In this document: in pieces, positions 2,526-43,523 of the stretch
How the letters are laid out: the number at the start of each line of letters is the position of its first letter
Position numbering within the stretch: position 1 is the stretch's first letter
Source: Clavelina lepadiformis
Lineage: Eukaryota; Chordata; Ascidiacea; Aplousobranchia; Clavelinidae
Assembly: GCF_947623445.1 (NCBI RefSeq)
Contig: NC_135248.1
Location: forward strand, 3,534,977-3,598,976
Reading direction: 5' to 3'
Length of the DNA: 64,000 bases
Position numbers and translations under genes: made by a program
The notes under the pieces: generated by a model
Told to the model about the DNA's origin: nothing
Seen by the model: only the letters and a program-made list of their open reading frames with translations
The model's database searches: none

Positions 2526-5500
2526 GATGGTTTAGATTTCAAGATAATTCGATGCAAAAATTGATTACAACTATAACAAACTTACATAGGGTTTGATATC
2601 CCTACAGTAGCAAAAGTAATGTAAAACAGCTTTTTAGGTTTAGTGGCCTTGTTAACCTTCCACCATTATAGCATAATTAGTATCTTGAACATTTTAAGCT
2701 TCACCAGGCTTTGCTGTTTTTTCCCGGTTGTTGGTTATTTATGATCATTTTTCTGGTTAGATTTTGCTATAACAAGGCTAGCACCATTCTTTTCGTTCCA
2801 CATGATCAATGGCAAAAAATACACGATACAATAACAAAATATGCCAAGTCATGTTTGCAATGTTGGGCTGATGATACTTTAAAGAACAGTGATGACAAAT
2901 GTTAAAAAATGTTCTGACATCACAGTAATTTATACAGGAGCTGAACCTCAACATTACCTGCAACCAACTATGCTTTTTAATAAATACTTGAAATCATGTC
3001 ATAATTTTTTGTTCCTGTTCTAATTCTGGTTTTATACGGATAAAAAGCTAAAAAATTGTTCATAATAAAACCTCATAGAATCTAGTGCAGAAGTGCATAA
3101 CCACATGATGCATTTGTATACTAGAGCTCTGCTGCCCAAATGGTAATGCCATTTGGTTGTCCGCTTATGCACAATCTCCGCATCATCAAACTAAAAATGT
3201 CCACACAATGCGCTTTCAAGATGGCTGTCACTACTTCACTGGAAAAAATCATGCGTTCGAAGCTAATTTTCATAGTTTCTTGTTAACCCAAGTTAACTGT
3301 AGTAACATAGTGACCTAAGCTTAATCTAAATCCAACTCCAATAAAACCTTAAATAGCTAAAATCCATTTTTTCTCATATTCTTACCGCCTATCTTTAACA
3401 ACAGCAGAACGGGCAGCGTGACCTACTTACAATAAAATAATTTAACCACGTCGTTTCGAGATACTAAGTAGGCCAAGTAAGTGGGAAGTAGGTCAGTTAA
3501 ATATGTCAGTGGCAGAGAAAAGCAATTAACAACTGGCAGTGGAAATTTCGTCCACCGAGTTAATGGCGAAGAATTAATTGTATTAAATGACTGAAATATT
3601 CCAAGCGCAGTTCACGGTTAAGAGGTATAAGCTAAGCGTGATGCTGATCTCGTTTAAGGTAAAGTACCCTATTGTAGACACGGTTTAGATTTATTAAGCA
3701 TAGAACGAAGAATCCCATTAGATGATTAGAAATACGGCTACTAACCCAAAAAAAATGTTTAAAGTTTTTAGTTTTACAGCAGCTTTATGCTTTTAATCAG
3801 ATATTTTTCTTCTTTTTGCACATATTCAAAGATACTAAAGATATAGTAGGCGAAATATTAAAATACATCAGTTGGCAGATCTATTAACTTCGTTACTTTT
3901 TTGCTTATTTACTGCAAATTAAGGTTTTTTTGTATCTCGAAACAAAATTTGCAAAGCTTGATGCACAAAAAATCTAAATTGACCGAACAACTTATTTGAT
4001 CAAACAGTTTACGAAAATGATTTGTTGACTTTGTGAACAACTTTCTCCAAATGGTTACTTGGCATCTACATACTGTACAAATATACTAAATCAGTAAACA
4101 TTCCTGCAAAAAAATTATTACGCATCGCAACTCGCATGCTAAAATTAAATTTTCTCCAACCAAAAATTTTGTGAAAGTAAACCTAGCTACTAAAAATTTT
4201 AGACCTCAAGACTCAGGAGTACAATCAGATTTGACTGTTATTATACCGCACATTGTTTAGTACAGTATTGTTGCCATGGGCAAACTACGCAAATTAACGA
4301 ACACGCAACGAAAATTAGAAAGACAAGTGATTCAATGTTCTTTGTTTCCGTGGTCGGATGTATGCGGCCGTGCCGACCATTAGTGTTTTTTAACATGTCA
4401 ATTTAAAAACTGTGCACGTGTCAAAGCCTTTGGGGTTTTGCAGATTTTTCCCGCCTGATCGTTCGTTTGCGGAGCTTTTTTTCTTTTTCGCTCCCCCACA
4501 AGCTATGACAGAAAATAAACGACATTATATACACATGTTGTTCTGTTTATGATATTTAAATAAACTCCCACACAGACTGAAATAAATGACATCAGCACAA
4601 GTTAAGTTCACAAATTGTAAGACCCATTAAGGAATGAGCCAAAAGCCAAAACAACTTGCAAAAACCGCCACCATGTGCATACACTGTTCAGCTTGTCAAT
4701 TTAAATCGTATTCATACCTAGGGTTAACAAAACATATTAGCCAGCAACCCAGCCAACAGCACTACACCGTACCGTCTTACATCCACAAAAACTCCTTAAC
4801 AGGCTTTTCGTCTTCCAGCTGTTGTTCTCTGCAGGCATGATCTGCTTTGTCATGATCGTTCTCCTTAACTCACATTTGAAGTACCGGTACGCTTTTCATT
4901 GGTCAGCACCAGATGTGTTTGAGGTAACAGCTGGAAAGTCGTTAACAGCAGAAAAGCCATGATAATTTTTAGATCCGTTTGACTAATCCGAATTAAATAC
5001 TACGATATTGCTGTACCAATAACTTATTTCTTTGTACCCTGGGTTTATGAATACGCACATAATTTATAACAAGAAACTATGAAAAACAGCTTCGAACGTA
5101 CGACTATTTCCCGATGAACTAATGACGGCAATTTTTATTTATAATAGGCCTACATATTTTTCTACCAATTAGCCTACTTTTGCATCTTTCTCGGAAGTGA
5201 TATTATTTTGTTATTTTTGTTGCCGAACATGAGCAAAGTTTACCTGTAAAACAGAAACGAATAATGTAGCTCGAAGGGACGATTCGTTGTTATCTTGTTA
5301 TACATCCTCACTTTCTTAATACATCTGACAATTTGAGCGTGTTAGGTTTATATAACAAAACACATAAAACAGCAGAATACGGATGCACTCTAGTCTAGGA
5401 GTAAAATTAACAAAAAAGTTGGTATAGACGAGCAGTGGTCAAAATAGCAAACGTTAAACCGTGCAAAACTGAGTCCAACTGCAGTACTGGTTCAATGCTA

Positions 5501-9607: not shown

Positions 9608-11998
9608 ATGATGGCAGGACCACTGCAAAAGGCTGACTTATCGTGGGGGCGAAAGATGAACAAAATGACCGATAGGTTGAAAGAATTTTTAGATAAAAAT
9701 GGTAAAGAAAAAGATGCAGAAAAATCTGCGTCCATCTTCCATCAGATGGGATTGCTTTATATGGAAAAAAGTGAGCAAGATGACTTCATAACAAAAAAGT
9801 TGACTCTAATCAGAAGCGCTGCGCTTTTGAATGCTGCAGTGACCAGACAACCTGGCAACGAGCAATTCCAGAAATCTCTGAAAGATTTCTGCTCGAACTT
9901 GCTGCAAACAGCTGGCGCTAAAATACTTAAAGCTGACCTTTTAGAAATCGCCAAAATAATAAAAAAAATGGCGGAAGAAATGAGAAGAGAAACTGAAGAA
10001 AGTTTGGTTACTTTGAGAAACATTTCTTATGATTTATCTAAACAAGAACAAAATAATTTGGAAAATGAAATAATTGCAAATATCAAAACAATCCAAACTC
10101 AGATTACTCTGAAATACAAAAATATGATGAAGTTCGTATCAAAAGAATGTGAGAAAATAATGGGGAATACCCCATGCAAGTACTCCATTACCGGTATGGG
10201 TTCCCTTGCCAGATGTGAAATCACACCTTACTCGGATTTTGAGCATATCATACTGTTGGAGGAAGGAGTACAGAAAAAAGAAAATTATCCTGAAGTATTA
10301 GAGTATTTTCGTTGGTTCTCTGTCATTTTCCAAACGATCATTATCAACTTGCAGGAAACAATTTTACCTAGCGTGGCCATTCCCAACCTCGAACAGGTTA
10401 CAAAGCGGGGTGAGAAAGGGTTCTTCGACGCCTTTACAAAACGTGGAATCAGTTTCGACTTCATAAGACCGTATGCTTGCCATTTTCCACTTGGTAGGAT
10501 GGAAAAGACTGAGAAGAAACAATTCACAAACGAGTTTATCAAACCAGTGAGTGAAATGCTCAAGTATTTGGATAAAGATGAGGACTTGAAGAATGGCTAC
10601 AATATACCGAATGTGTTAATAACTACTTGCCAGGTCTATGGAGATAATCAGATATACCAACAAATTTTTGAGGGAATAAAAGATGTTTTGCGAAGTGATA
10701 AACTTCCAAAATACGACAGATTGATGCAGCAACTCAACGAAGATTTGCAAAATTTCGACGCTTTCGACAGTTTGAATGCAGTCAGTGCAGACAGCAAGTG
10801 CAACATAAAACGACTTGTTTACCGTACCACAACCTTATTTATTTCAGCATTAGGTCAGCTGAACTCTATTGATGATGGCTCGTCCTTTGCGATCATCGAC
10901 CAACTAAATAACAACAACGAAATCGATGATGGAACTGCTCATCTCTTATCATACGCTGTTGCAGTGAGCTGTCAAGTTCGTCTCAAGGTCTACATGGAAA
11001 AAGAAAGCCAAGATGATTATGTTGGCGAAAACCAAATCTATGGTTGGTCGGATAACAAGGTGTATGACAACTTAATGAGTACAGTTGGCGAAAAAACTAT
11101 GGTAGATTATTTTGCAATTGCGTACAAATTGCAGAATGTGCTAAGACGGAATGATGGTTTGAGCAACATGAAATTCAACATTACATTGAAACCATTTGAT
11201 AAGTTCAAAATGCTTCATATGCTTAATCTCCACGCTCGCATCATCAGTGAATGGGAAAGTTATTCAAGAGAGCAACCACTAAACTCATCGTCCGGAGATG
11301 AACTGTTTATTCGATGGTGGGTGGCGAGCGCGTATAGCAATACGCATCAATACAACGAATCACTACTTATGTTGGAGTGGTTAGAAGAACGCGGTATAAA
11401 AGACCCGGATTTGAAACAAGAAGTGATGCGTGGCAAAGCATGGTGCTTGTTTTACTTAAACCGCTTCCAGGAAGTGCTTCAGTTCATTGGCCAAGTCAAG
11501 GCTGAAGTTTTCAACTTGAATTTATCCGACACTCGTAAACATTTACTTTACGTCCATCTTGCTTACATCAGTGGTTGGTGTCAATATAAATCGAAGGAGT
11601 ATCAACTCGCAATCGATCAATACATGGATGTGGCTGAATATGCAGCTCGTATCGATCAACGTGGTTTGCCGCTGAAGGAAATCCACAGAGCACTCTGGTT
11701 TTATAACATCGGAGATTGTTTGTTTGAGCTCGGTCATTATGACGCAGCAATGAATGAAGCAGAGAAAAGTCAAAAACATTACGAACAACACAATGGTACT
11801 GTTCGTGACAAATGTAAATGCTATTCGCTGTTAGGTCGGTGTCATCTTAAGAAAGAAGAATACACAAAAGCTTCAATTTTTTTTCGATCTGAACTTGATT
11901 TAAGGCTACAGTTCGTTCCAAACGAAAAAAAACATTCTGACAAATACATCAATTTTGCGAAAAAAAATATTCAGATTTGCCAAGAAAATGTGCAATAA
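9608..11998 (+). CDS. nucleotidyltransferase-fold (GlnD/DUF294-like) protein with C-terminal TPRs
   Basis: A single uninterrupted frame encodes 796 residues. Residues about 1-185 are helical and charged. At 198-212 lies a Pol-beta-type nucleotidyltransferase motif, GSLARCEITPYSDFE, with the glycine-serine pair and paired acids D210 and E212; D284 in RGISFDF is a plausible third metal ligand. This matches the N-terminal uridylyltransferase-like family (GlnD/DUF294). About 340-550 is helical, like the domain that follows the catalytic core in that family. From about 565 to 790 repeated helical hairpins, such as the pair around AYISGWCQYKSKEYQLAIDQY, read as tetratricopeptide repeats. No signal peptide or membrane segment is seen, so it is probably cytosolic. 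The substrate is unknown. It has no introns, unlike many neighbours, and its AATAAA overlaps the stop codon at 11994-11999. Domain call confident, function open. Confidence 0.85.
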   Translation: MMAGPLQKADLSWGRKMNKMTDRLKEFLDKNGKEKDAEKSASIFHQMGLLYMEKSEQDDFITKKLTLIRSAALLNAAVTRQPGNEQFQKSLKDFCSNLLQTAGAKILKADLLEIAKIIKKMAEEMRRETEESLVTLRNISYDLSKQEQNNLENEIIANIKTIQTQITLKYKNMMKFVSKECEKIMGNTPCKYSITGMGSLARCEITPYSDFEHIILLEEGVQKKENYPEVLEYFRWFSVIFQTIIINLQETILPSVAIPNLEQVTKRGEKGFFDAFTKRGISFDFIRPYACHFPLGRMEKTEKKQFTNEFIKPVSEMLKYLDKDEDLKNGYNIPNVLITTCQVYGDNQIYQQIFEGIKDVLRSDKLPKYDRLMQQLNEDLQNFDAFDSLNAVSADSKCNIKRLVYRTTTLFISALGQLNSIDDGSSFAIIDQLNNNNEIDDGTAHLLSYAVAVSCQVRLKVYMEKESQDDYVGENQIYGWSDNKVYDNLMSTVGEKTMVDYFAIAYKLQNVLRRNDGLSNMKFNITLKPFDKFKMLHMLNLHARIISEWESYSREQPLNSSSGDELFIRWWVASAYSNTHQYNESLLMLEWLEERGIKDPDLKQEVMRGKAWCLFYLNRFQEVLQFIGQVKAEVFNLNLSDTRKHLLYVHLAYISGWCQYKSKEYQLAIDQYMDVAEYAARIDQRGLPLKEIHRALWFYNIGDCLFELGHYDAAMNEAEKSQKHYEQHNGTVRDKCKCYSLLGRCHLKKEEYTKASIFFRSELDLRLQFVPNEKKHSDKYINFAKKNIQICQENVQ

Positions 11999-14900
11999 AA
12001 TTTGCAGCTTTTACAGGATTAGTAGCTGATATGCAGATGCAGGGGAAATTTGTTGTTATAGATTTGAACTTGTGAACGCATTATTTTATTAATCAAATAT
12101 TATCACAATTTCTTTAAAGGCAATGGAACTGGTCAATGACTAACATCCTCTGTTTAGACATTTTGCAGTTAAACTAAAAATCGCTCATCAGCGTCAATGC
12201 ATCTCTTGTACATGTCATAATTAGCTTTTCCTTCAAACTGTATTATATTGTTCTGCTGTAAATATGTTTGGCACTTTCACGCATTTCATGCATTTACTGG
12301 TTGGTATTGCGGATTAGAGTATGACGTCATCATGACAATTATTTCAAATCACTCTGATAATATAATTTACATGGCAAATTTTATCTTTTGGAACCAATTC
12401 AATATTTTTTGTTCCAGAATTGAGTTTCCTTCAGTTTGATCTGCGTTGACGCGATCACTTGTTTTTGTTTTGATATTGATTCTAATTACAGAGACACAAG
12501 TAACTTTATAATTGTAGCTGTTGATATATCGTACTGGTGGTCTACCACGCCTTTGTTTAGAACCGATCATAATTCGCCCTATAAATTCTTTGCAACGACT
12601 CATCGATTAAGCAGATTGGGCTCGCTGATTTAGAAAGCGACTAACTATCTTTGTACTCAAACACCATATGCTTAAGATTACATGGGAAGCGTGGAAATAA
12701 AGATGGGCTATGTAGTCGAGCATGCAAGCGTCGCAAGGGTAAAATGGTAGTTTGATGAAAGTGGCTTAGTGAGAGGTTGGCAATGTTCTTACAACATTAA
12801 GATTAGGCACTTTTATAAACATTTTGATTAAGTTTTTTTTAGGAAGATAATGTCATTGCCTACACTTTAAGTGTTTGTGAACCTCCGTTTTATAACTATC
12901 AATCCAAATCTCACTTGAAAAACTTTCGATCTGAATTCTAACAAATTCAGTAAAAGAGAAACAAACAAACAAACCGGCTGTTGTGCCATCATACTAAGAA
13001 TATGTAGCTACATTTAGCGGCAAACAATTTCCATGCTCAAGTCAAGCTTTCCATTGGCTTTTGGTTGTTGCAACAAGTTCGTTTTAAATTGATATATTGA
13101 GTACAGATTATACCAAAGCTGTTACCATCGTTTTATAGAATAATGCAACGCATCATCACTCAGTAAATGCAAAATTTTACAATACATTCCAGTGATAAAG
13201 CTAACACCAACGTTGGTAACAAGATGGTAGTCATACACGTAGAGCCTAATTGCCATACGAATCTAAAAGATTTTGAAATAATTTAATGTGAAAACTAGCG
13301 TGATTATTTTTGGCCATTTGGACGCCAAACAAGCGGGTTTTCATACGATCCCAGAAAATAATGTCGCAATAACTACCGTATATCATAAAAAATATTTAAG
13401 TACAAGTTTGTATAGCCACTGTACTTTTTTATGTCAAAATTATTATTTACCTGCATTGTTAAAGGACAAAGTTTCTATTTTATCACTTGACCGATAACCA
13501 ATGAACATGACCAATGACCGATTCCATAAGCGTGAGGGCACCACCGAAATGACAATGATAAATATCTCATATGTGTGACGTATAGAAGTACAACAAACTG
13601 CAAATCGAAAGTGAAACAAACATTAAATAAAATTATATGACCTCAGTAGCGATATCAGATGTCTCATTCTGATGCTGTGGCTACCACTCTCGTCTCGACC
13701 TATCTGCCAGCTTAGTGCAAGATTAGCCAGTCACGGATCCTGCTGGCGTACTTCGCAAATATTTTGAACCAAGCGGTCAACGGCTATCACATGGAGGGAT
13801 GAAATGCGCCATGGCGGTCAACGGTGATTTGTGGCGGAAGAACAACTACGGAGGTTCAGAGACCGTAATCCCTGGTGCGGAAAATAGCTGACAACCTAGC
13901 ACACTATTTAGTCAAGATAGTTTTCTACGCGATAAATACAGATCATTATCTATTCTATTATTGCTGCTACATGAACTGAACGCTTCTTTCAATCACATAA
14001 TTTCGTCTATTCGCGTTAAAAATCAACGAAATAAAATGAGCAATAAAACCGCTCAAAACAGCGACATATCATTAAACAGCTTCGTGGTTCTACGCCGCCA
14101 AAAGAAATTGCACAGGCACTTAATTGAGAAGCAGAAGGGTTTAATGTCATTCCTTATAGTAGTAGTACAAGTATGTGAACACACAGGCTTTGCTATACTG
14201 TAATGCTATGACATAAAGAAAGACACGTAAAGAAGTGTGTTTGTGAATATATAGAATTTGTTCTGCATATGCAAGCAATTAAACAAACCATTGATAAAAA
14301 ATATTCACAGCGTAATTAATACTTAATCTTTTAAACAGACTCATGTATGCCATAATCCCAATAACTGCAATTATGTGCTTAATAATACTTGATAAAGCAG
14401 CTTGGAAAATGCACACCTGAGAAAGATGGAGAGTAAGAAATATGAAAGCGCAATTCAGACCTGTCGTTCATTACAGACAAATGTTCAGATGTAGATAAAC
14501 ACGCAACATACTTCGAAATCTACTTGTAAGTCACACAGGCCAGTCGTATAAACACCCATGCAAAATATTTACAACCGTTGTAAGGCAAGAAATGAAGCAT
14601 TGTGATAAAGAACAATGAAAAATCATGGATAAAAGCTATAAAAGTTAAAATCTGAGACAAAGGTTCACAGCATAAACATATTGAAGTTGTGAATATTGTG
14701 TACTTTTGTACTGCAAAACTATTTGTAACATAAACCGTTTGGGTGATAAATCTAACATTGATTGCTGTGAGGATATCCTGGAAGGACTGGACAGTACCAA
14801 CTCAACAATAAAAATGAATGAGTCAATGTGGTAAAACACGTCCAGATTACGTACGAGTGTGAATGCATTGTATAGTTACTGATATATATGAATCGATAAA

Positions 14901-19864: not shown

Positions 19865-21733
19865 TCAAAATGACTGAATCGCTCGAATTTCACATTTCTG
19901 TTGCATGCGAAGATGACGATAAAAACGTAAAACATCAACACTTGATCGTACGCAAGATGCATTAAAGTCAAGCACACGTAAACCTTTCAAAGATTTTGCA
20001 CGGGACAGGGCTACGTATGCCTGACCGTTTTCAAACACCCTTGAAAGAGACATTTCAACACAATCAAGGGACATTCCTTGACTTTTATGAATTGAGATTG
20101 CCCATGCAAGCTTCAGTGGAAGTTGTTTCCGAAAAGCAGTGATGTCACTGGAAATTTTTAAAGAATAACTCTCATATTTTATCGCTTTTTCTGGACCAGA
20201 CAGGAAGCGAATAACTGGAATTCGTACCTCCGTGTTTGTAAAAGAAACAACAATTCCTCGAGCACCATTAACCAAACCATTAGTGACGTCTATATTTTTT
20301 GTTAACATTACTTGAGCACCAACTTTAAGCTCAATGGATTGCGTATCTGGCAAAAGTTTGTCTAATATTGAAGAGAAAGCAGTTGAACTGTCAATTGCTT
20401 GAAAAGTCTTTGAGTCACCAGAAAGCTGATGTAAATAATATTCATTGGTCTGCTTAACAGTTTTAATGTGGGTGCAAAGTTTTGTTGCTGTGATGCCATT
20501 ATGTTCGGTTTTATTGGAAGCTGTAGCCTTTAGCAGTGCAATTGATTTAGGGTCACATTTTCCAATACGAATGTCTTGCAAGACTTGAATAAGTCTGTCA
20601 TCTGTCTGGCGATAAATCTTGTGCAGCTCCCAGTTATACTCAATGCATTTCTGCCAGGATTTCGCCTGAAAGCAAAATTTCTTCTTAACAGTGCTTTTTG
20701 ACACTGGAGGAAGCTGAAAAAAGTCCCCACATATTATCAGTTGAATTCCACCAAATGGATCAGTGCTACCACGAACTGCTCTTGCTATGGCTTCGATGCA
20801 ATCAAAAAAATCGGCATCAATCATGGATATTTCATCAATGATCAAATGTTTGCATGTCTTCCATTGCCTTGCAACTACCTTGTGATTACGAACGCAGGTG
20901 ATGGCTTGATTAAATGGCATAGATTCCTTGATGCCAACAAATGAGTGTAATGTCATGCCACCAATGTGACAAGCTGCAACTCCTGTACTGGCGATAACAG
21001 CTGTATGAGATGGCGGTAACATTCCGATAATATGACGCAGCAAAAAGGACTTCCCGGTGCCAGCACTACCAGTGAGAAAAACATTCTTGCCTCTTTTAAT
21101 CATTTTGAGGACATGCTTCTGTTCAATGCTAAGGTTGTCTGTGGGCAGTACTAACATGCGCTTCTTGCTGGGTGGCACATTGGCTGTCTGCTTGCTACCA
21201 GAAGTCATGTTCGTTTGATCTGAAAAAGGTTGTTTTCTTTTCCCACCAGCTGCTTTCTCGTTTATCTTTATTTCATTTTCTTTCCGCATATTGTTAACAG
21301 TATTGATATCTTTTTCATTTATTGGACTGATTTCCTCAAATGCTTTTGGCAAACCAGCAAGAAGTTTTTTCCTTTGTGAGACTTTTCCATTGACCTTAAA
21401 ATTTGCCAACTTAACGGAAAGAACTTGGAAGAAGCGTTTCAAATCTGCAGGAGGGCAATTTGACAGAAGCAACCTCACGTTATGATTGGCCAGAATCAGT
21501 GTGCTTTTACCTTCTTTCATAAATTTTGAGTGAATCTTGACATCCTGCAGGACGTATTTCAAAGGTTCTAGTTTTGCTGACTTTGTAAGAAGAATGACAA
21601 TTTCACGAAATTCATTGCGCCATAGAGAAAGACTTGCTTTTAAATATTTTTGCCTTTTTACGATTTCTTGCCGTTCGTTTAAATTTTCAATATGAACATG
21701 ACAGTTCAATGATAGTTCGCTGCAGTTATCCAT
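19865..21733 (-). CDS. PIF1: PIF1 5'-to-3' DNA helicase
   Basis: One exon of 622 residues encodes the cellular PIF1 helicase, which unwinds DNA and G-quadruplexes in nucleus and mitochondria. Residues 1-135 match the PIF1 N-terminal region of animals (LLLSNCPPADLKRFF). A low-complexity basic linker (about 145-195) follows. Helicase motifs are complete: Walker A GSAGTGKS (222-229), the PIF1 signature around STGVAACHIGGMTLHSF, Walker B DEIS (300-303), CGDFFQLPPV, KLGAQVMLTKN, and near the C-terminus LAWAISIHKSQGMSLD with YVALSRA. Its length is close to human PIF1. No AATAAA or ATTAAA was seen between its stop and the MFSD1-B start, 249 bp downstream on the same strand, which suggests a shared transcript. 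The PIF1-type N-terminus and lack of a Rep domain argue against a Helitron. Confidence 0.96.
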   Translation of the reverse strand: MDNCSELSLNCHVHIENLNERQEIVKRQKYLKASLSLWRNEFREIVILLTKSAKLEPLKYVLQDVKIHSKFMKEGKSTLILANHNVRLLLSNCPPADLKRFFQVLSVKLANFKVNGKVSQRKKLLAGLPKAFEEISPINEKDINTVNNMRKENEIKINEKAAGGKRKQPFSDQTNMTSGSKQTANVPPSKKRMLVLPTDNLSIEQKHVLKMIKRGKNVFLTGSAGTGKSFLLRHIIGMLPPSHTAVIASTGVAACHIGGMTLHSFVGIKESMPFNQAITCVRNHKVVARQWKTCKHLIIDEISMIDADFFDCIEAIARAVRGSTDPFGGIQLIICGDFFQLPPVSKSTVKKKFCFQAKSWQKCIEYNWELHKIYRQTDDRLIQVLQDIRIGKCDPKSIALLKATASNKTEHNGITATKLCTHIKTVKQTNEYYLHQLSGDSKTFQAIDSSTAFSSILDKLLPDTQSIELKVGAQVMLTKNIDVTNGLVNGARGIVVSFTNTEVRIPVIRFLSGPEKAIKYESYSLKISSDITAFRKQLPLKLAWAISIHKSQGMSLDCVEMSLSRVFENGQAYVALSRAKSLKGLRVLDFNASCVRSSVDVLRFYRHLRMQQKCEIRAIQSF

Positions 21734-24339
21734 GAAATTTTTAACAGCATGTAAACAGTTTTACCACAAAACTATGCTATAAACCATTACAAACACATGT
21801 TCATACAACAATAAAACAACCACCCAAGTTCCTGAAATAAATGAGTTATACTTAACCACTACAGGATACCCTACATTGGCAATGCAACAAACATACCCTG
21901 ACGTCAAACTGGACCTTTTTCACTTTTTTAAACGAAAGGGGGAGGTGCAACAGTTTGTATATGAATACAAACAAGATGCAGCAATGTGAAAAAGACAGTT
22001 ATGGGCCGATAGAAGAAACAGATTAACAAACTAACATAGCTTATAAGCTATTTTACCAACATGCGAAACATATTGTTAACATACTTTTTAAGCTCCACGC
22101 GCTAACTTGTGAGATGGTGACTAAGGTTAGCAAGTTAATGTAAAATTCGACGCTTGGGTTTGTTTATGTTAATATATTACTGCATTATGTACTACGACGG
22201 TAACCATGAAACTAACACAGTTATCATAAAGCATAGGTTAAACGCAAACCTTATTGATAAATTTTGCTTTTGTGAGTCCTATATTCAACTGCTATTTGCA
22301 ACATATTACTTTGGCAACACTAGCTTTGAATGATTTACTAAACATTTCAAATGAGATATATTTTAGCTTATACAACTTGAGGAAAGTGGCATGAAAACCT
22401 GTTGCTTTAATGTTACAATAAGCTTGGCTGAAAAATGGTAAGTTTCATGGTCCGCTTTGGCGATATTACAAACTGTGACAGTAATAAGAATATAAAATAA
22501 AATTGCTGTCTCAATTCTAAAAGAAAAGCTTCAGTTTAATTAGAAAACTTTCAATATGTCAGTACGTTTTATGAAGTGACTATTTTACCGACATCCATTT
22601 TCCAAAGTTGTACAATCATAATAACTGTGACCGTCATATTTACGCTGATAAGTATATTAACTCTCATTTTTGACGAGGGAAAAAAGAAATGCAGTGGCAT
22701 AATGGTTAGTGATTGGGACCTTTTGCTTTTAAATCTTCTTAACGATGGGCTATTTTTTTGTTCAAATTTATTTTTGATATATACCGGCTACTGAATTTGG
22801 TAACGGCTAGCGGCTGCTAGCCGATGATGCAACGGGTATTTTCAACAAACAACCAGTCTTCTTGCATGTTTTAAGCCTTACGACTTTGCTACGTTTTTTT
22901 CCGGTTGTTGATTAAGTATCTTCCTGTGCGCATTGTTTGTTACCGGTAGTCCTGTAGTCGGATACCTCCAATCCAGAAGGCCAGACTGCGGAATTTGAAA
23001 TAGGTGCACTCAATATCGCTTTTCATGAGATTCAGTGCCGCACTTAAGGTGCATTATTTTTCACTTAATGACTTGGACAGAACTTCTGTCTGTGCACTCA
23101 ATTTTCAATTTACTTAAAAATTGAATAAGTAAACTAGGCCTAGTGTACATTACTGTGTAATTGCGCACTTCTAGGCCTAGTACGTCTGAGCATTTTTTTG
23201 CGCTCCGCAATTGTCGTTTTCGGTTGTTTGGCGCACCCAAAATCTTGCTGAAAACGGCAAAACTCTGTATTCCGCCTGGAACGGACGTATCGCATCCAAG
23301 TATATATACCAATAAAAACAATAGGCCAATACTCGCAGGATCAAATTAAAAGTTGCATGCCTTAACTTAGCGATTGCAACTAAATGGTATTTTTTTTTTT
23401 TTTTTTTTTTTGGTGGCCAATACGGGCCAATAATGGTATTGCATTCCATTAGCAGCAATTCTTCACTACGCTACAATTAACGGCAGAACTTTAAACCACG
23501 TTCAAACTTACCAACTCGCGACCACTTGACCAACCAAACAAAGCCAAAAAATTAGAATAGAAGGCGGTTCTCCCATTTTTAAAGACCGATGGTCACGTGC
23601 ACAAACAAATAACTCTTTAGCGCCACTATCCCACAATCTTTTTTGTTACATTTTACATCCTCACCTATAGATATCTTATTTACACATACCACTCGGTGCA
23701 TAGTAAATACTGCAGCAAATAGCTTACCTCCCTTGGGCCATAAGATTTTTACGTCTTCATTCCATTTCGTTTATTGCATTTCCTTATGTGCTACTACGTT
23801 GTATACGTCAAAAAATCATTGCATACGGCGTTTCAAAGTGTACAACATAAATTGGAAGCTATTGCAGGTATAAATATGAGAATTAATATAAATATACCGG
23901 AAACTTAGACTAAAAATTTTTAAAAACTTTTGGCCTCTTCTCAACGCAGTTTCAAATACAACATTGTCTGCAACCACTGACTGATATAAAGATAAAACCT
24001 TAGTTCTTGTATTTCTCTGGAAGTCGATTAAGCGCAGCCTTAACAGAAGTTTTTCAAAATTTTGGAAAACTTCTAATTTTACCAAAACAGAAATCTAAAT
24101 GTAAAAATATGCAGTTACTAGGAGTACCATATTTTTATCACTCAAAAGGAAGTTACGTAACGCCACCACACGCTCGCACAGTGCGGTATTTGGGATTGCG
24201 TTGTGGAGAGAAAGACAAATGTTTTTAAAAGCAATACCTAACATTTCCGCATTACTAAACTCGCCAAAATAGTTACTACATAGTATACATTACTAACTCG
24301 CCAGAGTTAAAAAATTTGAAGGTTTTACCATCAAAAATG
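21734..24339. other. intergenic, no gene recognised
   Basis: This interval separates the PIF1 start from the metallothionein region. It holds a 22-nt T run at 23390-23411 and a small inverted motif around 22805-22822 (GGCTAGCGGCTGCTAGCC). A 72-codon hydrophobic frame at 22576-22794 has no support. The PIF1 promoter should lie near 21750-21950. Confidence 0.45.
23390..23411. repeat. poly(T) tract
   Basis: Twenty-two consecutive T residues, possibly the A-tail of a decayed retroposon on the minus strand, though no body is recognisable. Confidence 0.85.
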
Positions 24340-29497: not shown

Positions 29498-30630
29498 CCT
29501 TGGCTATAGCCTTTTAGGCTAGGCCAGGATGGAATGTACCGTAATTTTTTTGTGCACTGGAAAGCATCATTTCTAAAGACTGGTGTGCACCAGGTATCTA
29601 ATTTTGCACTGGTCACAACGCTTTTTTTCCATACCAGTATACGGGCTAGGCTATGACTGTATGAGAAAGATTGCATAAGTGTACACTTGGCCAGCTGTTA
29701 CACACCTGCAGACCTTCGCCAATTTCTCGGCAAATTCTGCCATAAAATTGGCTACATACCGGCATCATACTGCATGAGGCCCAAATGCTTACCTTTAAGC
29801 TTAACCTCTAGGCAAAGCTACCTGACTATACTGACTAGAAGGTATGACAGTTTTCGAAGAGAAATTGTGCACTGAAACCTCAATTTTTCTTTTATTTATT
29901 ATAAGTCGGCATTCAAACAAGTTGAAATGACTGGCTTTATTTATTATAAATCGGAAAGAAGATATAATTTGGTGTGCACATTGATAAATTTTGTGTGTAA
30001 CTGCCGCGCTTTCCACACTTGAGCCACCGGAGTTCTTTGTTTTCATCCCAAACGAGAGTAATAAGCCTGTCAACCCCTGCGTTGTATGGAGAAAATCACG
30101 TCTTGGTGCAATGGATTGCAAAGTATGGTGCTTTTTGACGATACCGGAACAGGTATTGTTCGAAAGTTCATGTCAATGGTCTTGTAAATGATGCATTATA
30201 TATAGTCTGTTCTATATCTGCAACAAATATCAAATGAAATAGTTTTGTCAAATTGCTTTGATGTGTGAATGCTGGTACACACTTTAAAACCTGGTAAAGC
30301 ATATTACTGGCTGACTTAATTAGGGATACTTTCAATGCAAACCACGCCAATTTTGTTAAAATCTTAAACAAAAGTAGGGTTTGACATTTATATTGTACAA
30401 AAAACAAATTTTCCTGTTTAGATTACCTGCAGTACTGCAATAAGTCTGTAGTTAAATAAGTTATCAAACTCTGCTGATGCATAAGTAGATGCAATGCTGT
30501 TGATATCGTCCTCTTCCTTAAGTGTAAATTGTACACATAAGCTGCCTTGGTTATTAGCACCTTTTTTGTCTGTCCCAGAATGCATGCTCTTTTGTCGCTA
30601 AGTCAAGTAATTTTGTCATTTTTTTTTCAG
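29498..30630. other. intergenic upstream of Aurora kinase
   Basis: No gene is recognised. A motif around 29945-30020 (AAATCGG followed by GTGTGCACATTGATAAATTTTGTGTG and CTTTCCACAC) also occurs in diverged form at about 42640-42700 and 42888-42950, so this is part of an unassigned dispersed repeat. The Aurora promoter should lie in the right half. Confidence 0.45.
30613..30630 (+). promoter_or_regulatory. strong splice or trans-splice acceptor before Aurora kinase
   Basis: A TTGTCATTTTTTTTTCAG tract ends at 30630, 42 nt before the preferred Aurora start codon. This is a near-ideal acceptor. With no other coding exon upstream, it is either the end of a 5' UTR intron or a spliced-leader addition site, as is common in ascidians. 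Confidence 0.6.
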
Positions 30631-30672
30631 TTTATGTTATTAACTTTGTTTTACCCAATAACTTTTGTGGAA

Positions 30673-31620
30673 ATGAATTCCGCTGATAATGAAAATAAAA
30701 CTCCAGCACCAATGACTGGAAAGTCCACTGCAGAAGGCAGTAGCAAGCAGCCTGAAAGCAGTGCTAAAAAAACGGGCGGAAAATCAGAAATGGACAATTG
30801 GTCTCTAAAGAATTTTGACATTGGCAAACCTTTGGGCCGTGGGAAGTTTGGCAGCGTTTATTTGGCACGTGAGAAGAAGAGCAAATTTATTGTTGCTCTA
30901 AAAGTTTTGTTTAAATCTCAACTGATGAAGAGCAACGTTGAGCACCAGCTTCGCCGAGAGATAGAAATCCAGTCACATCTTCGTCACCCACACATCCTCA
31001 GGCTCTATGGCTACTTCCACGATGATACCCGCGTGTATCTCATACTTGAGTATGCTCCACGTGGTGAGATGTACAAGGAGCTCCAAAAAAAGCAAAGATT
31101 TTCAGAGGAAACTACTGCCACTTACATTGCAGAATTGGCCGACGCACTGAAGTATTGTCATAGCAAGAATGTCATACATCGGGATATCAAGCCAGAGAAC
31201 TTGCTGATGGGTCTTCGTGGCGAACTAAAAATCGCTGATTTTGGCTGGTCCGTTCATGCACCTTCATCAAAAAGGCAAACTCTCTGTGGAACATTAGATT
31301 ATCTACCTCCTGAGATGGTGGTAGGTAAACACCATGATGAGAATGTCGATCTTTGGACTCTCGGAATTCTGTGCTATGAATTTTTGGTTGGCAAGCCGCC
31401 GTTTGAATCACAAACTAACCAAGATACGTATCGGAGGATTACAACGTTGCAGTACCAGTTCCCACCCCATGTCTCAGATGGAGCACGTGACCTGATCAAA
31501 CGCCTGCTGAAAATCAGCCCCAAGCAAAGACTTCCACTGGATGATGTGATGGCTCACCCCTGGATCAAGGCAAATGCCAAGGTACACAAGTTTGGGCCTG
31601 ACGGTCGTCCAATTGATTAG
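30673..31620 (+). CDS. Aurora kinase, single exon, mixed A/B features
   Basis: The product has 315 residues from the ATG at 30673. Two upstream in-frame ATGs exist, but only the one at 30634 lies downstream of the acceptor at 30630; it would add 13 hydrophobic residues unlike any Aurora. Aurora kinases phosphorylate spindle, centrosome and kinetochore proteins in mitosis. Residues 1-42 are low-complexity. The kinase domain has the GRGKFG loop (55-60), catalytic lysine K77, HRDIKPEN (169-176), DFG (189-191) and activation-loop T203 in [12 protein letters not shown], equivalent to human Aurora A T288. G113 in LYGYF matches Aurora A G198, whereas R130 and E132 in YAPRGE match Aurora B hinge residues. 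Ascidians are reported to have one Aurora, which fits this hybrid. The C-terminal tail ([11 protein letters not shown]) is short. AATAAA is at 31964. Confidence 0.95.
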
Positions 31621-40562: not shown

Positions 40563-41507
40563 TCATTTTTTCCTTTTATTTCTCAGACTTTGGCCTTGTC
40601 CAGAAAAGGCCTCAAAATCGGTTGATGGGCCAGCTTCAGGTTCCTTTTTTGGAAAATTGTTCCTAATGTATGTTAAGCTGCCAAACTTCCATTTATAGTT
40701 TGGTATTCCCCTTTTAATCGATGACATGTCCAACTCTGTTTTTTTGGCTTTAACTTTTTTCTTTTTGCCATCCAGTCGGTTGCCAGCACCTTCGAATGGT
40801 GAAAATGTGGTGTTTTCTTTCATGTACTCTTCGATTGCTTTCTTCATATCTGGAGTTCCAACTGAAAACGCTTCCTCTGCTTTTTTCGGTGCTGGTGGCT
40901 CATAGCCAACAGGAGCATCAAATTCCAGGCTGATGTCACATTCGATAATACAAACAGCTGTTTGGGGTTTCACTTCTAGCACGCATAGTTCATACTGACG
41001 GTTGTTGTACTGGATTGCAATAACATCCCCCTTTGTGAGACACGCAAAGTTACGAAGAGCATTCTCTAGAACTGCTTTCGGATTTGAAATATCATGAAAG
41101 TCTTTTGACTGAGGTTGAAACCGAGCATATGTTGCTATAGGCAATGTGCAATTTTCAACATGAACAAGATCTCCTTCTGAAAGCAATAGATTCTGCATCA
41201 TCCAGTACGGCAAAAATATCACACCTTCTTCAGCTACAAATTCAAGGACACCACAATGTGTTGAACGTTCATTGGCTGTGTTTATGTTAGTCAATTTAAA
41301 CAACATTGGATAAGATATATTTAGGCGGCTAAGCTGATCCAGGGCAGAAGGAGGCATGATAATTTTTCCTCCCTTTTTAATATCTTCACTTTTGGTATCA
41401 GAAAGAGCCCCAAAACTGCTCGAGTAGCACCTATATTTGTTGCTGAATCGATTTGCCCTTGGGCCGCCCATCATTCCAAACTCATCGAACATGTTCATTC
41501 CAAACAT
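40563..41507 (-). CDS. UFD1: UFD1, ubiquitin-binding cofactor of p97/VCP
   Basis: One exon of 314 residues (human 307). UFD1 pairs with NPL4 to bring ubiquitinated substrates to the p97 ATPase for ER-associated and chromatin-associated degradation. Residues about 18-200 form the conserved ubiquitin-binding double-psi barrel, with IIMPPSALDQLSRLNISYPM, FLPYWMMQNL, and QYELCVLEVKP. The C-terminal tail contains two p97-binding SHP boxes, FSPFEGAGNRL (235-245) and FEAFSGQGQSL (298-308), and the NPL4-binding region KRGIPNYKWKFG between them. The start MFGMNMFDEF matches the animal family. It is intronless, unlike vertebrate UFD1, consistent with a retrocopy replacement or lineage-specific intron loss. 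Confidence 0.97.
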   Translation of the reverse strand: MFGMNMFDEFGMMGGPRANRFSNKYRCYSSSFGALSDTKSEDIKKGGKIIMPPSALDQLSRLNISYPMLFKLTNINTANERSTHCGVLEFVAEEGVIFLPYWMMQNLLLSEGDLVHVENCTLPIATYARFQPQSKDFHDISNPKAVLENALRNFACLTKGDVIAIQYNNRQYELCVLEVKPQTAVCIIECDISLEFDAPVGYEPPAPKKAEEAFSVGTPDMKKAIEEYMKENTTFSPFEGAGNRLDGKKKKVKAKKTELDMSSIKRGIPNYKWKFGSLTYIRNNFPKKEPEAGPSTDFEAFSGQGQSLRNKRKK

Positions 41508-43523
41508 AATTAACTATATCAGATTTTTAAATGTATGATGTTCACTAACACTGCACAGGAAATAAAACAGTTAAGTAACTTTACAGAATTGCACTTATTG
41601 GATAGGCTAATCACATGCATACAATCAATCAGATAAAAGTTTTAAGTTAAAAAAGCATTTTGTTTAAAGATAAAGTGAGAAAAGACAGAACAGATGGCTG
41701 CAATATTAACAGCTCAAGAAAAGTGAACACTAATATACCACGGTACAATAAGTGGGGAATTACAAAATAATCATAGGTAACTTGGCAGCGTAGTTGTCAG
41801 AATGCCAAACATGAAATAATGTGAAGCGGGTGTTTTGTTGTCATTGGAATACCTTTGGTCAAAGCATTAATGGTGCTTTTTCTATTCAGTGAATCAGTGA
41901 TACTGGTGAATCAAATCAAACTAAATCCAGGCATAGCCACAAAAAAACAAATAAATAAACCAAAGAAAAATATGTCTCCATATAATAATGCACAATGTAG
42001 GGATCAACCAATTTATTCCGGCCAATATTTAACACTTCGATGCATATAGGCACATTTTCTATTAATGCAAAGGCTGATATGATAGTTATTTGGTGACAGT
42101 GTATGAGCCAATTAGAAGAGGAATTTCAGGACAAAAATGTTTTGCAGGAAAATCATCGACGGAAATGCAGAGCGTTAAAAGCAGTAAACGCTCTATTATG
42201 AAGTGTTGTTGAAATTTCACAACCATCGAAAAAATTAAAACGCTTTTGACTGACATTAAACTTTCATTATATGTGAGTGTGCAAAAACGCATGTGTAAAA
42301 AATCGTGTATTAAATCAAGTGCGCAAAAATGCAAATCTTGGTATGATGGCGTGCACTAAAGCCATAATTTTTTGTTTTTTTATTGTAAGTTGGTGATCGA
42401 ATAACTCATAGTGGAAAGTGTAGCACCTGCACGTACGAATATAAACCTGCACTCTGAACTTTTTTAGTTCACACAGCAATTTATAATAAACAAACAAGCA
42501 AAAATTGATTGCTTCATTGTCCATTTAAAATAAACATACAAAAAGTATGTTATTTGTTACAGTTGTGGTTGAAACCAGCCATGCCAAACCGCAGAGCATG
42601 GCAGTTTTTGCCGAGATCTCAGGGGTGCAGAAGCAATTCGGCGTGCATGTTGATGAACCTTCTGTGTGCAGCTGCAATACTTTCCACCATGTCATAGTCA
42701 AGGGACAAGTTTTTACAGTAAAAAACAGAGAAAAAAGTGGTTGTTACTTAAATTTTTTAGAGAGATTTCTCCTTTCCCCAGTGTGCAATACCAGATGTGC
42801 TTCTGCTGGCTGCCACACTCTAGGCCTATAGTCTGGTTGCCATGCTTTCCAGTTGGGCAAACAACAAGCTTTTCTTCGTTTATTGATTATAAATCGGCGT
42901 GCATGATAATGAATCTCATGCGTGAAGGTGCCACACTTTCCACTAGGCCTAATAGCTTATATGATACCGTTATCTTTTAGGTTCCATTCATGGAAAATTG
43001 GTGATTTTAAAGTTAAGCACCATAAGAGCTCATCAATGCGTAACCACATCAGGGCTACATTCACAAGTCTCTTTGTAACAGTCTGACTTTGTATAGGACA
43101 AGGGTATGCTACTAATTTATGTTTAAATTATAGACCTACGCTTGCACTTAAGATTCAGTATGTATTATCATTTGTAGACCTACAAAGATTAAAATGAGAT
43201 ATTTCACAATTCTTCACTTTCAGTAAGTCAGTAAGTGGGCAATGGGTTTATTCTGCACAACCGTAATAGGCCAATTCAGTGCCTTGGCGCTTTTCACAGA
43301 TTTGTTGAGCATTCTGCAGATTCCTCATTCCGCAAATTAAAAGGACAACTTGCCCAAACAAAAGTCAGTGTAAATAAAAAAAAATAACTTTGAATTTTTT
43401 AAAAGAATTTTTTGCAAAATAAGGCAGCAAATGCAGATAGGCCTAGATGATAATATCTACACGCCTAGTATCTTCTGATCCTACGGTAACAATCTATCCA
43501 GTTAATGCTTAGATCCATTAGAC
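41508..43523. other. intergenic, unassigned repeat motifs
   Basis: No gene is recognised. At 42640-42700 and 42888-42950 two related stretches (TCGGCGTGCATG, then GATGAA or AATGAA, GTG, and ACTTTCCAC) repeat about 250 bp apart, and a third relative lies at 29945-30020. Open frames over 42547-42980 look like by-products of this repeat. Confidence 0.4.

Follow-up and report, generated by a model that had tools for sequence, protein, structure and literature searches.

A multicopy DUF294-class nucleotidyltransferase–TPR gene family in the ascidian Clavelina lepadiformis and its chlamydial relatives

Two classes of animal AMPylase, Fic and SelO, are counted in the relevant part of a 2021 review (PMC8097203). 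The animal AMPylase FICD, described as a single gene in humans in the section of PMC12409994 that mentions it, joins tetratricopeptide repeats (TPRs) to a domain that transfers a nucleotide; that domain has the Fic fold, and the TPRs, which precede it, are used for substrate choice according to the portion of PMC8065156 that treats them. Among bacterial enzymes, the passages of PMC7815794 on metal binding place the triad of DrrA (SidM) of Legionella at D110, D112 and D150, with the motif G98-S99-L100, and the triad of glutamine synthetase adenylyltransferase (GS-ATase) at D701, D703 and D753. In Neochlamydia, the NEX2 family is presented in the corresponding part of PMC4209131 as 50 proteins with F-box/OTU, DUF294 and TPR regions. 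Here we describe an animal gene that has features of several of these systems. It lies in a 64,000-nucleotide stretch of the genome of the ascidian Clavelina lepadiformis (GCF_947623445.1, NC_135248.1, positions 3,534,977 to 3,598,976; hereafter the window) and encodes a 796-residue protein with a nucleotidyltransferase (NTase) domain followed by TPRs.

It is virtually certain that the gene belongs to a family of DUF294-class NTase–TPR proteins. For that family we document which domains its members have, how many copies there are, which acids are conserved, how constraint differs between parts and which relatives occur in chlamydiae. The NTase–TPR pairing of Neochlamydia and the DUF294 domain of Pfam are already known, and public databases also list DUF294 proteins from other invertebrates. 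For an animal DUF294–TPR family no description was found in the literature searched, a partial coverage with most subscription journals outside it.

Domain make-up and copies in the genome

The coding frame of the window gene (9608–11998, + strand) starts with ATG and is the longest of four stop-to-stop frames of at least 200 residues in the window; with the base composition of the window, 796 codons would stay open by chance with a probability of about 10^-25. Fourteen Pfam families match the protein at E ≤1. The DUF294 match (PF03445, residues 157–230) scores 24.5 bits against a cut-off of 21, which places the protein in that family, and a TPR_2 match (residues 696–727) scores 29.2 bits against a cut-off of 27. 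DUF294 thus lies mid-protein, and the TPRs occupy the C-terminal third. The initial annotation, made from the sequence alone, had read the 796-codon frame in the same way, as an NTase domain with C-terminal TPRs. Among the profiles it had named, DUF294 and TPR exceed their cut-offs, whereas DUF294_C stays below its own (13.8 bits versus 22.5) and CD-NTase profiles are unmatched.

The annotation had treated the gene as a lone protein, but the genome holds at least 92 such copies. A Pfam profile search of the same genome (209 Mb, 95 contigs) finds DUF294 matches, all over cut-off, on the contigs C1–C9, the window itself being on C9 (15.7 Mb); the count of 92 is a Pfam-based lower bound. The animal nature of this genome is borne out by nuclear-receptor ligand-binding domains, which are animal-specific: they give 9 exon-level matches in it, against none in 14 control genomes. 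The open frames that hold these matches reach at least 700 residues in 72 cases and at least 1000 in 11, and are shorter than 600 in 15. When a cluster is defined as matches within 60 kb of the next, 59 of the 92 fall into 13 clusters and 33 are solitary; the largest cluster, on C2, has 23 members. We fetched 48 loci chosen from the 92, in 40 of which the NTase-bearing frame is at least 730 residues long (under 730 in the remaining eight). The nearest fetched paralogue, L055, is 72% identical to the window protein over 792 residues. TPR matches over cut-off occur also in L055 and in L046, and in a scan of members three longer copies (L053, L039 and L030) carry many more TPRs. Downstream of the L055 gene lies a second, partial C-terminal copy with 75% identity to the window gene over 581 bases. 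Two further loci, L041 on C4 and L042 on C5, are identical at 5012 of 5013 bases, reflecting either a very recent duplication or an assembly artefact.

The features of the window gene are as follows (A1 is an alignment of 36 rows, 30 animal and 6 chlamydial; A3 and A4 are profiles).

9608..11998, +: whole coding frame, 796 residues, NTase–TPR protein (open reading frame and motif reading)
9608..10027, +: N-terminal region, residues 1–140, without a convincing Pfam domain
10028..11065, +: nucleotidyltransferase region of profiles A3 and A4, residues 141–486
10076..10297, +: DUF294 (PF03445) match, residues 157–230 (Pfam)
10199..10243, +: G-X11-D-X-E catalytic motif, residues 198–212 (G198, S199, D210, E212)
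10355..10357, +: E250, candidate third acid, 40 residues past D210 as D150 is past D110 in DrrA
10457..10459, +: D284, third acid of the initial annotation; Asp in members with a DxE motif, Cys in six chlamydial rows with DxD
10790..11014, +: DUF294_C-like region, residues 395–469, below cut-off; includes K401, which never varies across A1
11195..11995, +: TPR region at the C-terminus, residues 530–796, under looser constraint than the NTase; includes the TPR_2 match (11693–11788)
12696..12701, +: AATAAA, near the end of the homology to L055; possible mRNA end

Catalytic residues and constraint

The predicted catalytic motif stands where the initial annotation had placed it, with GSLAR beginning at residue 198 and SDFE at 209, giving D210 and E212; D284 lies within FDF at 283–285. 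The six letters G198, S199, D210, E212, E250 and D284 are all kept in 45 of 49 sequences (the 48 fetched loci and the window gene), the exceptions being L033, L052, L054 and L057. Together with 72 long frames among the 92, these intact catalytic sets argue that many of the copies are held by selection. Invariant residues across the 36 rows of A1 are G198, S199, R202, E204, D210, E212, E250, E309 and K401, and D284 is found in all 35 rows that have a letter at that position.

Two residues compete for the role of third acid. In G198-S199-L200, D210, E212 and E250 the spacing of 12, 2 and 40 residues is that of DrrA, and because it equals the published triad E250 is favoured. D284, proposed by the initial annotation, is indeed invariant among the DxE members; it stays a candidate because a hhalign comparison with E. 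coli GlnE places the strand that carries it beside the GlnE strand with EVDAR. In a set of 37 chlamydial rows (two pairs of which are identical), 30 have DxE, all with Asp at 284, six have DxD, all with Cys at 284, and one has a degenerate motif; position 250 in the same rows is Glu in 36 and Asp in one. The six DxD rows with Cys284 are L076, L077, L080, L083, L084 and L088. This pairing points to coupled substitutions in the active site. By its DrrA-like spacing and wider conservation E250, rather than D284, may well be the third acid.

The catalytic and C-terminal parts of the proteins differ in constraint. We estimated omega (the ratio of nonsynonymous to synonymous change) from parsimony counts, with bootstrap ranges for the C2 array. 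In 13 copies of that array, omega is 0.29 (0.22–0.39) for the NTase, residues 190–530 of L020, and 0.90 (0.72–1.15) for residues 590–780 (0.84 for the whole of 590–876). The window gene, L055 and L046 give 0.21 (0.15–0.28) for residues 181–475 and 0.60 (0.45–0.81) for residues 530–796, with 0.30 for residues 1–180; when L050 is added, the values are 0.16 (0.12–0.21) for the NTase and 0.49 (0.38–0.62) for the C-terminal part. In these two larger sets, then, the catalytic domain has an omega of 0.2–0.3 and constraint on the C-terminal repeats is roughly threefold weaker, a contrast that fits changing readers on a steady enzyme.

Chlamydial and bacterial relatives

The window gene has real relatives in chlamydiae. 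A search of 72,556 plasmid records matched just one, from Neochlamydia sp. S13, which has 11 matching places with E values down to 9e-25. In genome contigs, a degenerate motif picked out four stretches, all in one Parachlamydiaceae metagenome-assembled genome (MAG); within the class to which it belongs, matches at E ≤1e-5 occur in 24 of 232 genomes, its own included. A single-protein scan of the genome contigs found no relatives, nor were any found in phages, or in viral contigs by the motif or by A1 (six pattern matches failed confirmation). The NTase part of the window protein is about 27–33% identical to those of Neochlamydia and the MAG. DUF294 and TPRs occur together in all four chlamydial proteins scanned, two from Neochlamydia and two from the MAG, and the NTase precedes the TPRs in Neochlamydia and in the MAG MGR_bin34. 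From genus and domain order, the matched Neochlamydia loci are probably NEX2 members. Like the Clavelina family, NEX2 is a large paralogous family with a DxE motif and the order NTase then TPRs. The Neochlamydia proteins scanned differ in having many TPRs (up to 29 TPR_12 stretches) and, in both cases, an N-terminal F-box, which is absent from the two MAG proteins; the window gene has few TPRs, and no F-box was found in it by Pfam at E ≤1.

A first tree of 71 rows was built after removal of duplicate loci, short matches and matches spanning more than 450 residues; it holds 33 of the 48 fetched animal loci (L045 and L046 are among those absent). In it all 34 animal rows cluster together (100/100) at the end of a long branch (1.42), and they join 15 chlamydial rows (Neochlamydia, the MAG, the genomes G093 and G095, and the long branch L071) with support of 98/97. 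A second tree, from a new alignment of 64 rows and rooted on the six DxD rows, drops L071, L075, L089, L052, L013, L011 and L042 (two long or degenerate chlamydial branches, one degenerate row, one fragment and three duplicates); here the animal rows, 32 in number, group with 12 chlamydial ones at a support of 99/97. The phylogeny proposed in the initial annotation has brought chlamydial relatives together with the animal rows, all of which come from this one genome. The direction of transfer is not given by the trees, because their root, the midpoint or the DxD rows, is an assumption.

Searches of solved structures with a chlamydial-only profile of 20 NTase domains place DrrA first in the PDB (6yx5_B, E 3.7e-12; 3l0i_A, 1.2e-5; 3nku_A, 9e-4). 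The same chains come first (2.6e-10, 2.2e-4 and 0.0072) with the mixed profile A3, which has 39 rows (19 animal, 20 chlamydial) drawn from 68, DxD rows and many near-copies being left out. At E ≤1, Pfam SidM_N matches 37 of the 39 mixed members (best 7e-7) and 18 of the 19 animal members (best 1e-6), DUF294_C 33 and 13, and GlnE four and one, respectively. Kinship to the adenylyltransferase domain of DrrA is well supported in the chlamydial relatives, whereas the animal proteins are tied to it indirectly.

The initial annotation had described the protein as GlnD/DUF294-type. As an assignment to the class this holds; among characterised proteins, the AMPylase domain of DrrA/SidM is nearer than GlnD or cGAS, through the chlamydial relatives and weak SidM_N matches in the animal members. 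GlnD and GlnE, enzymes of bacterial nitrogen regulation, have in common with the window gene the superfamily and the motif G-X11-D-X-[DE], which hhalign aligns, but the similarity is weak. Identity as GlnD was rejected: the NCBIfam equivalog scores 15.5 bits where 799 are needed, and the GlnD_UR_UTase, HD and ACT parts of GlnD are not among the protein's 14 Pfam families. cGAS and the other cGAS/DncV-like nucleotidyltransferases (CD-NTases) belong to the same superfamily as the window NTase. The likeness ends at that level. No CD-NTase or Mab-21 family was matched in Pfam (window protein and 39 members, E ≤1) or in PADLOC (four proteins), and the CD-NTase assignment, with the parallel to cGAS drawn earlier, was not borne out.

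The coding frame is intronless, as the initial annotation had noted (the 5′ untranslated region may still have an intron), and the missing introns had been taken to fit transfer, retroposition or intron loss. They prove little, because neighbouring frames in the window are uninterrupted too: a PIF1-helicase frame at 19865–21760 (−, 631 residues), a protein-kinase frame at 30541–31620 (+), which we take to be Aurora-like, and a UFD1 frame at 40563–41513 (−) all run unbroken through their Pfam domains. Missing introns were accordingly dropped as proof of transfer or retroposition. The N-terminus of the PIF1-like frame matches the LRR1 pleckstrin-homology domain (PF25344; 64.6 bits, cut-off 27). 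Homology of the window gene to L055 and L046 begins 35–37 bases before the ATG (about 37 for L055), and that to L055 stops about 16 bases past AATAAA; these limits possibly mark the ends of the mRNA. The case for retroposition of the window copy is weak, since L055 and L046 share at least 440 upstream bases with each other and the end inspected shows no long stretch of A.

Candidate functions of the family

We favour the view that these genes form an expanded animal NTase–TPR family active in nucleotidyl transfer to proteins, perhaps as AMPylases and perhaps as a repertoire for conflict with microbes. Taken whole, this view is tentative and falls a little short of an even chance. Protein nucleotidyl transfer, suggested by the sequence relationships, is about evenly balanced between true and false, while a role in host–microbe conflict is plausible but somewhat doubtful. 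In the proposed mechanism, a metal and a nucleoside triphosphate would be held by D210 and E212 together with either E250 or D284 as third acid; a nucleotide, probably AMP, would be passed to a hydroxyl of a protein selected and bound by the TPRs; and the copies would differ chiefly in what their repeats bind. A conflict repertoire would be consistent with the conserved core and looser repeats, with the tandem clusters and their broken copies, and with the occurrence of relatives in bacteria that live inside cells. The initial annotation had suggested a protein-modifying or nucleotide-signalling system, and of the two a protein-modifying enzyme is the likelier kind. A bolder and rather improbable extension is that the family is a third animal AMPylase class beside Fic and SelO, common to this animal and chlamydia-like bacteria, whose approximately 70 long-frame genes, alike in their catalytic core but diverse in their TPR readers, would constitute an innate repertoire against invaders or hijacked host proteins.

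Several results weigh against the favoured view. The animal-only profile (19 rows) finds neither DrrA nor any other NTase in the PDB at E ≤10, its sole match being one chance-level chain at 0.39, and the window protein alone finds only TPR chains (0.15–0.42); at the sequence level the link to DrrA is therefore carried by the chlamydial relatives. SidM_N is weak in the window gene (E 0.028, 14.1 bits versus a cut-off of 27) and missing from the whole-protein Pfam scan at E ≤1, and hhalign of A3 with single E. coli sequences gives probabilities of 44.8% for GlnE and 24.9% for GlnD. Every one of the 36 rows of A1 has Glu as second acid, where DrrA and GlnE have Asp. The stretches of the mixed profile aligned to DrrA (positions 25–93 and 186–321) leave E250 and D284 outside, so that the choice of third acid depends on spacing and conservation. 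DrrA also has guanine nucleotide exchange factor and phosphatidylinositol 4-phosphate-binding parts, in place of which the window gene has TPRs (no Pfam match to such parts at E ≤1). In the C2 array the TPR matches of L020, L028 and L059, all three scanned, are below cut-off, and omega is raised in the N-terminal part as well (0.64 for residues 1–190, 1.66 for 121–160). Two pairs do not separate catalytic from C-terminal constraint: L024/L036, with 0.13 (0.05–0.26) versus 0.28 (0.19–0.39), and L021/L026, with 0.43 (0.20–1.11) versus 0.90 (0.61–1.46). Finally, omega of the repeats is not significantly above 1, and relaxed constraint accounts for the pattern as well as diversifying selection does.

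These last points bear on the possibility that the genes are an ordinary expanded family of cytosolic enzymes outside immunity, whose repeats drift through redundancy. Broken or short copies are common, as the 15 frames under 600 residues and the eight short fetched loci illustrate, but most frames are long, nearly all sequences keep the full catalytic set, and catalytic and C-terminal constraint differ in the two larger sets; we regard this explanation as possible, though on the unlikely side. The reaction might instead be addition of a nucleotide to RNA or a small molecule, in the manner of MenT or the kanamycin and lincosamide nucleotidyltransferases, with the TPRs binding a partner. The superfamily includes such enzymes, and the kanamycin and lincosamide enzymes follow DrrA in the PDB searches (0.34–2.0 with the mixed profile, 0.13–0.44 with the chlamydial-only profile), yet those matches span only about 25–31 profile positions round the motif and are not significant, and the chlamydial relatives match DrrA far better, its helical part included. 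This explanation, which we judge unlikely, may still hold for the animal members themselves, since the animal-only profile finds neither DrrA nor those enzymes.

A diffusible nucleotide second messenger, made as by cGAS or the CD-NTases with the TPRs sensing a trigger, would suit the common superfamily, the many copies and the joining of a possible sensing part to a catalytic part; there is also a weak match to the PADLOC candidate defence model PDC-S09 (0.009 for the window protein, 1.4e-4 for L024). With the nearest families being DUF294 and SidM_N, and none of the CD-NTase or Mab-21 type, we consider this very unlikely. An explanation of origin, compatible with the others, is that an effector-like gene passed between chlamydia-like bacteria and the animal and was kept to counter or mimic the bacterial version. 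The order NTase then TPRs in Neochlamydia and MGR_bin34 favours it, as does the joining of the animal rows to those of Neochlamydia, the MAG, G093 and G095, to the exclusion of the remaining chlamydial rows, in both trees. Against it stand the assumed root, the long animal branch and a tree whose eukaryotes are all from one animal, and the chlamydiae may have acquired the gene from their hosts; we judge this origin improbable.

If the favoured view of AMP transfer to proteins is true, the family would add a third AMPylase fold to those of animals. It would also represent a gene repertoire in which the choice of target evolves apart from catalysis, and would connect an animal gene family with tools that intracellular bacteria use.

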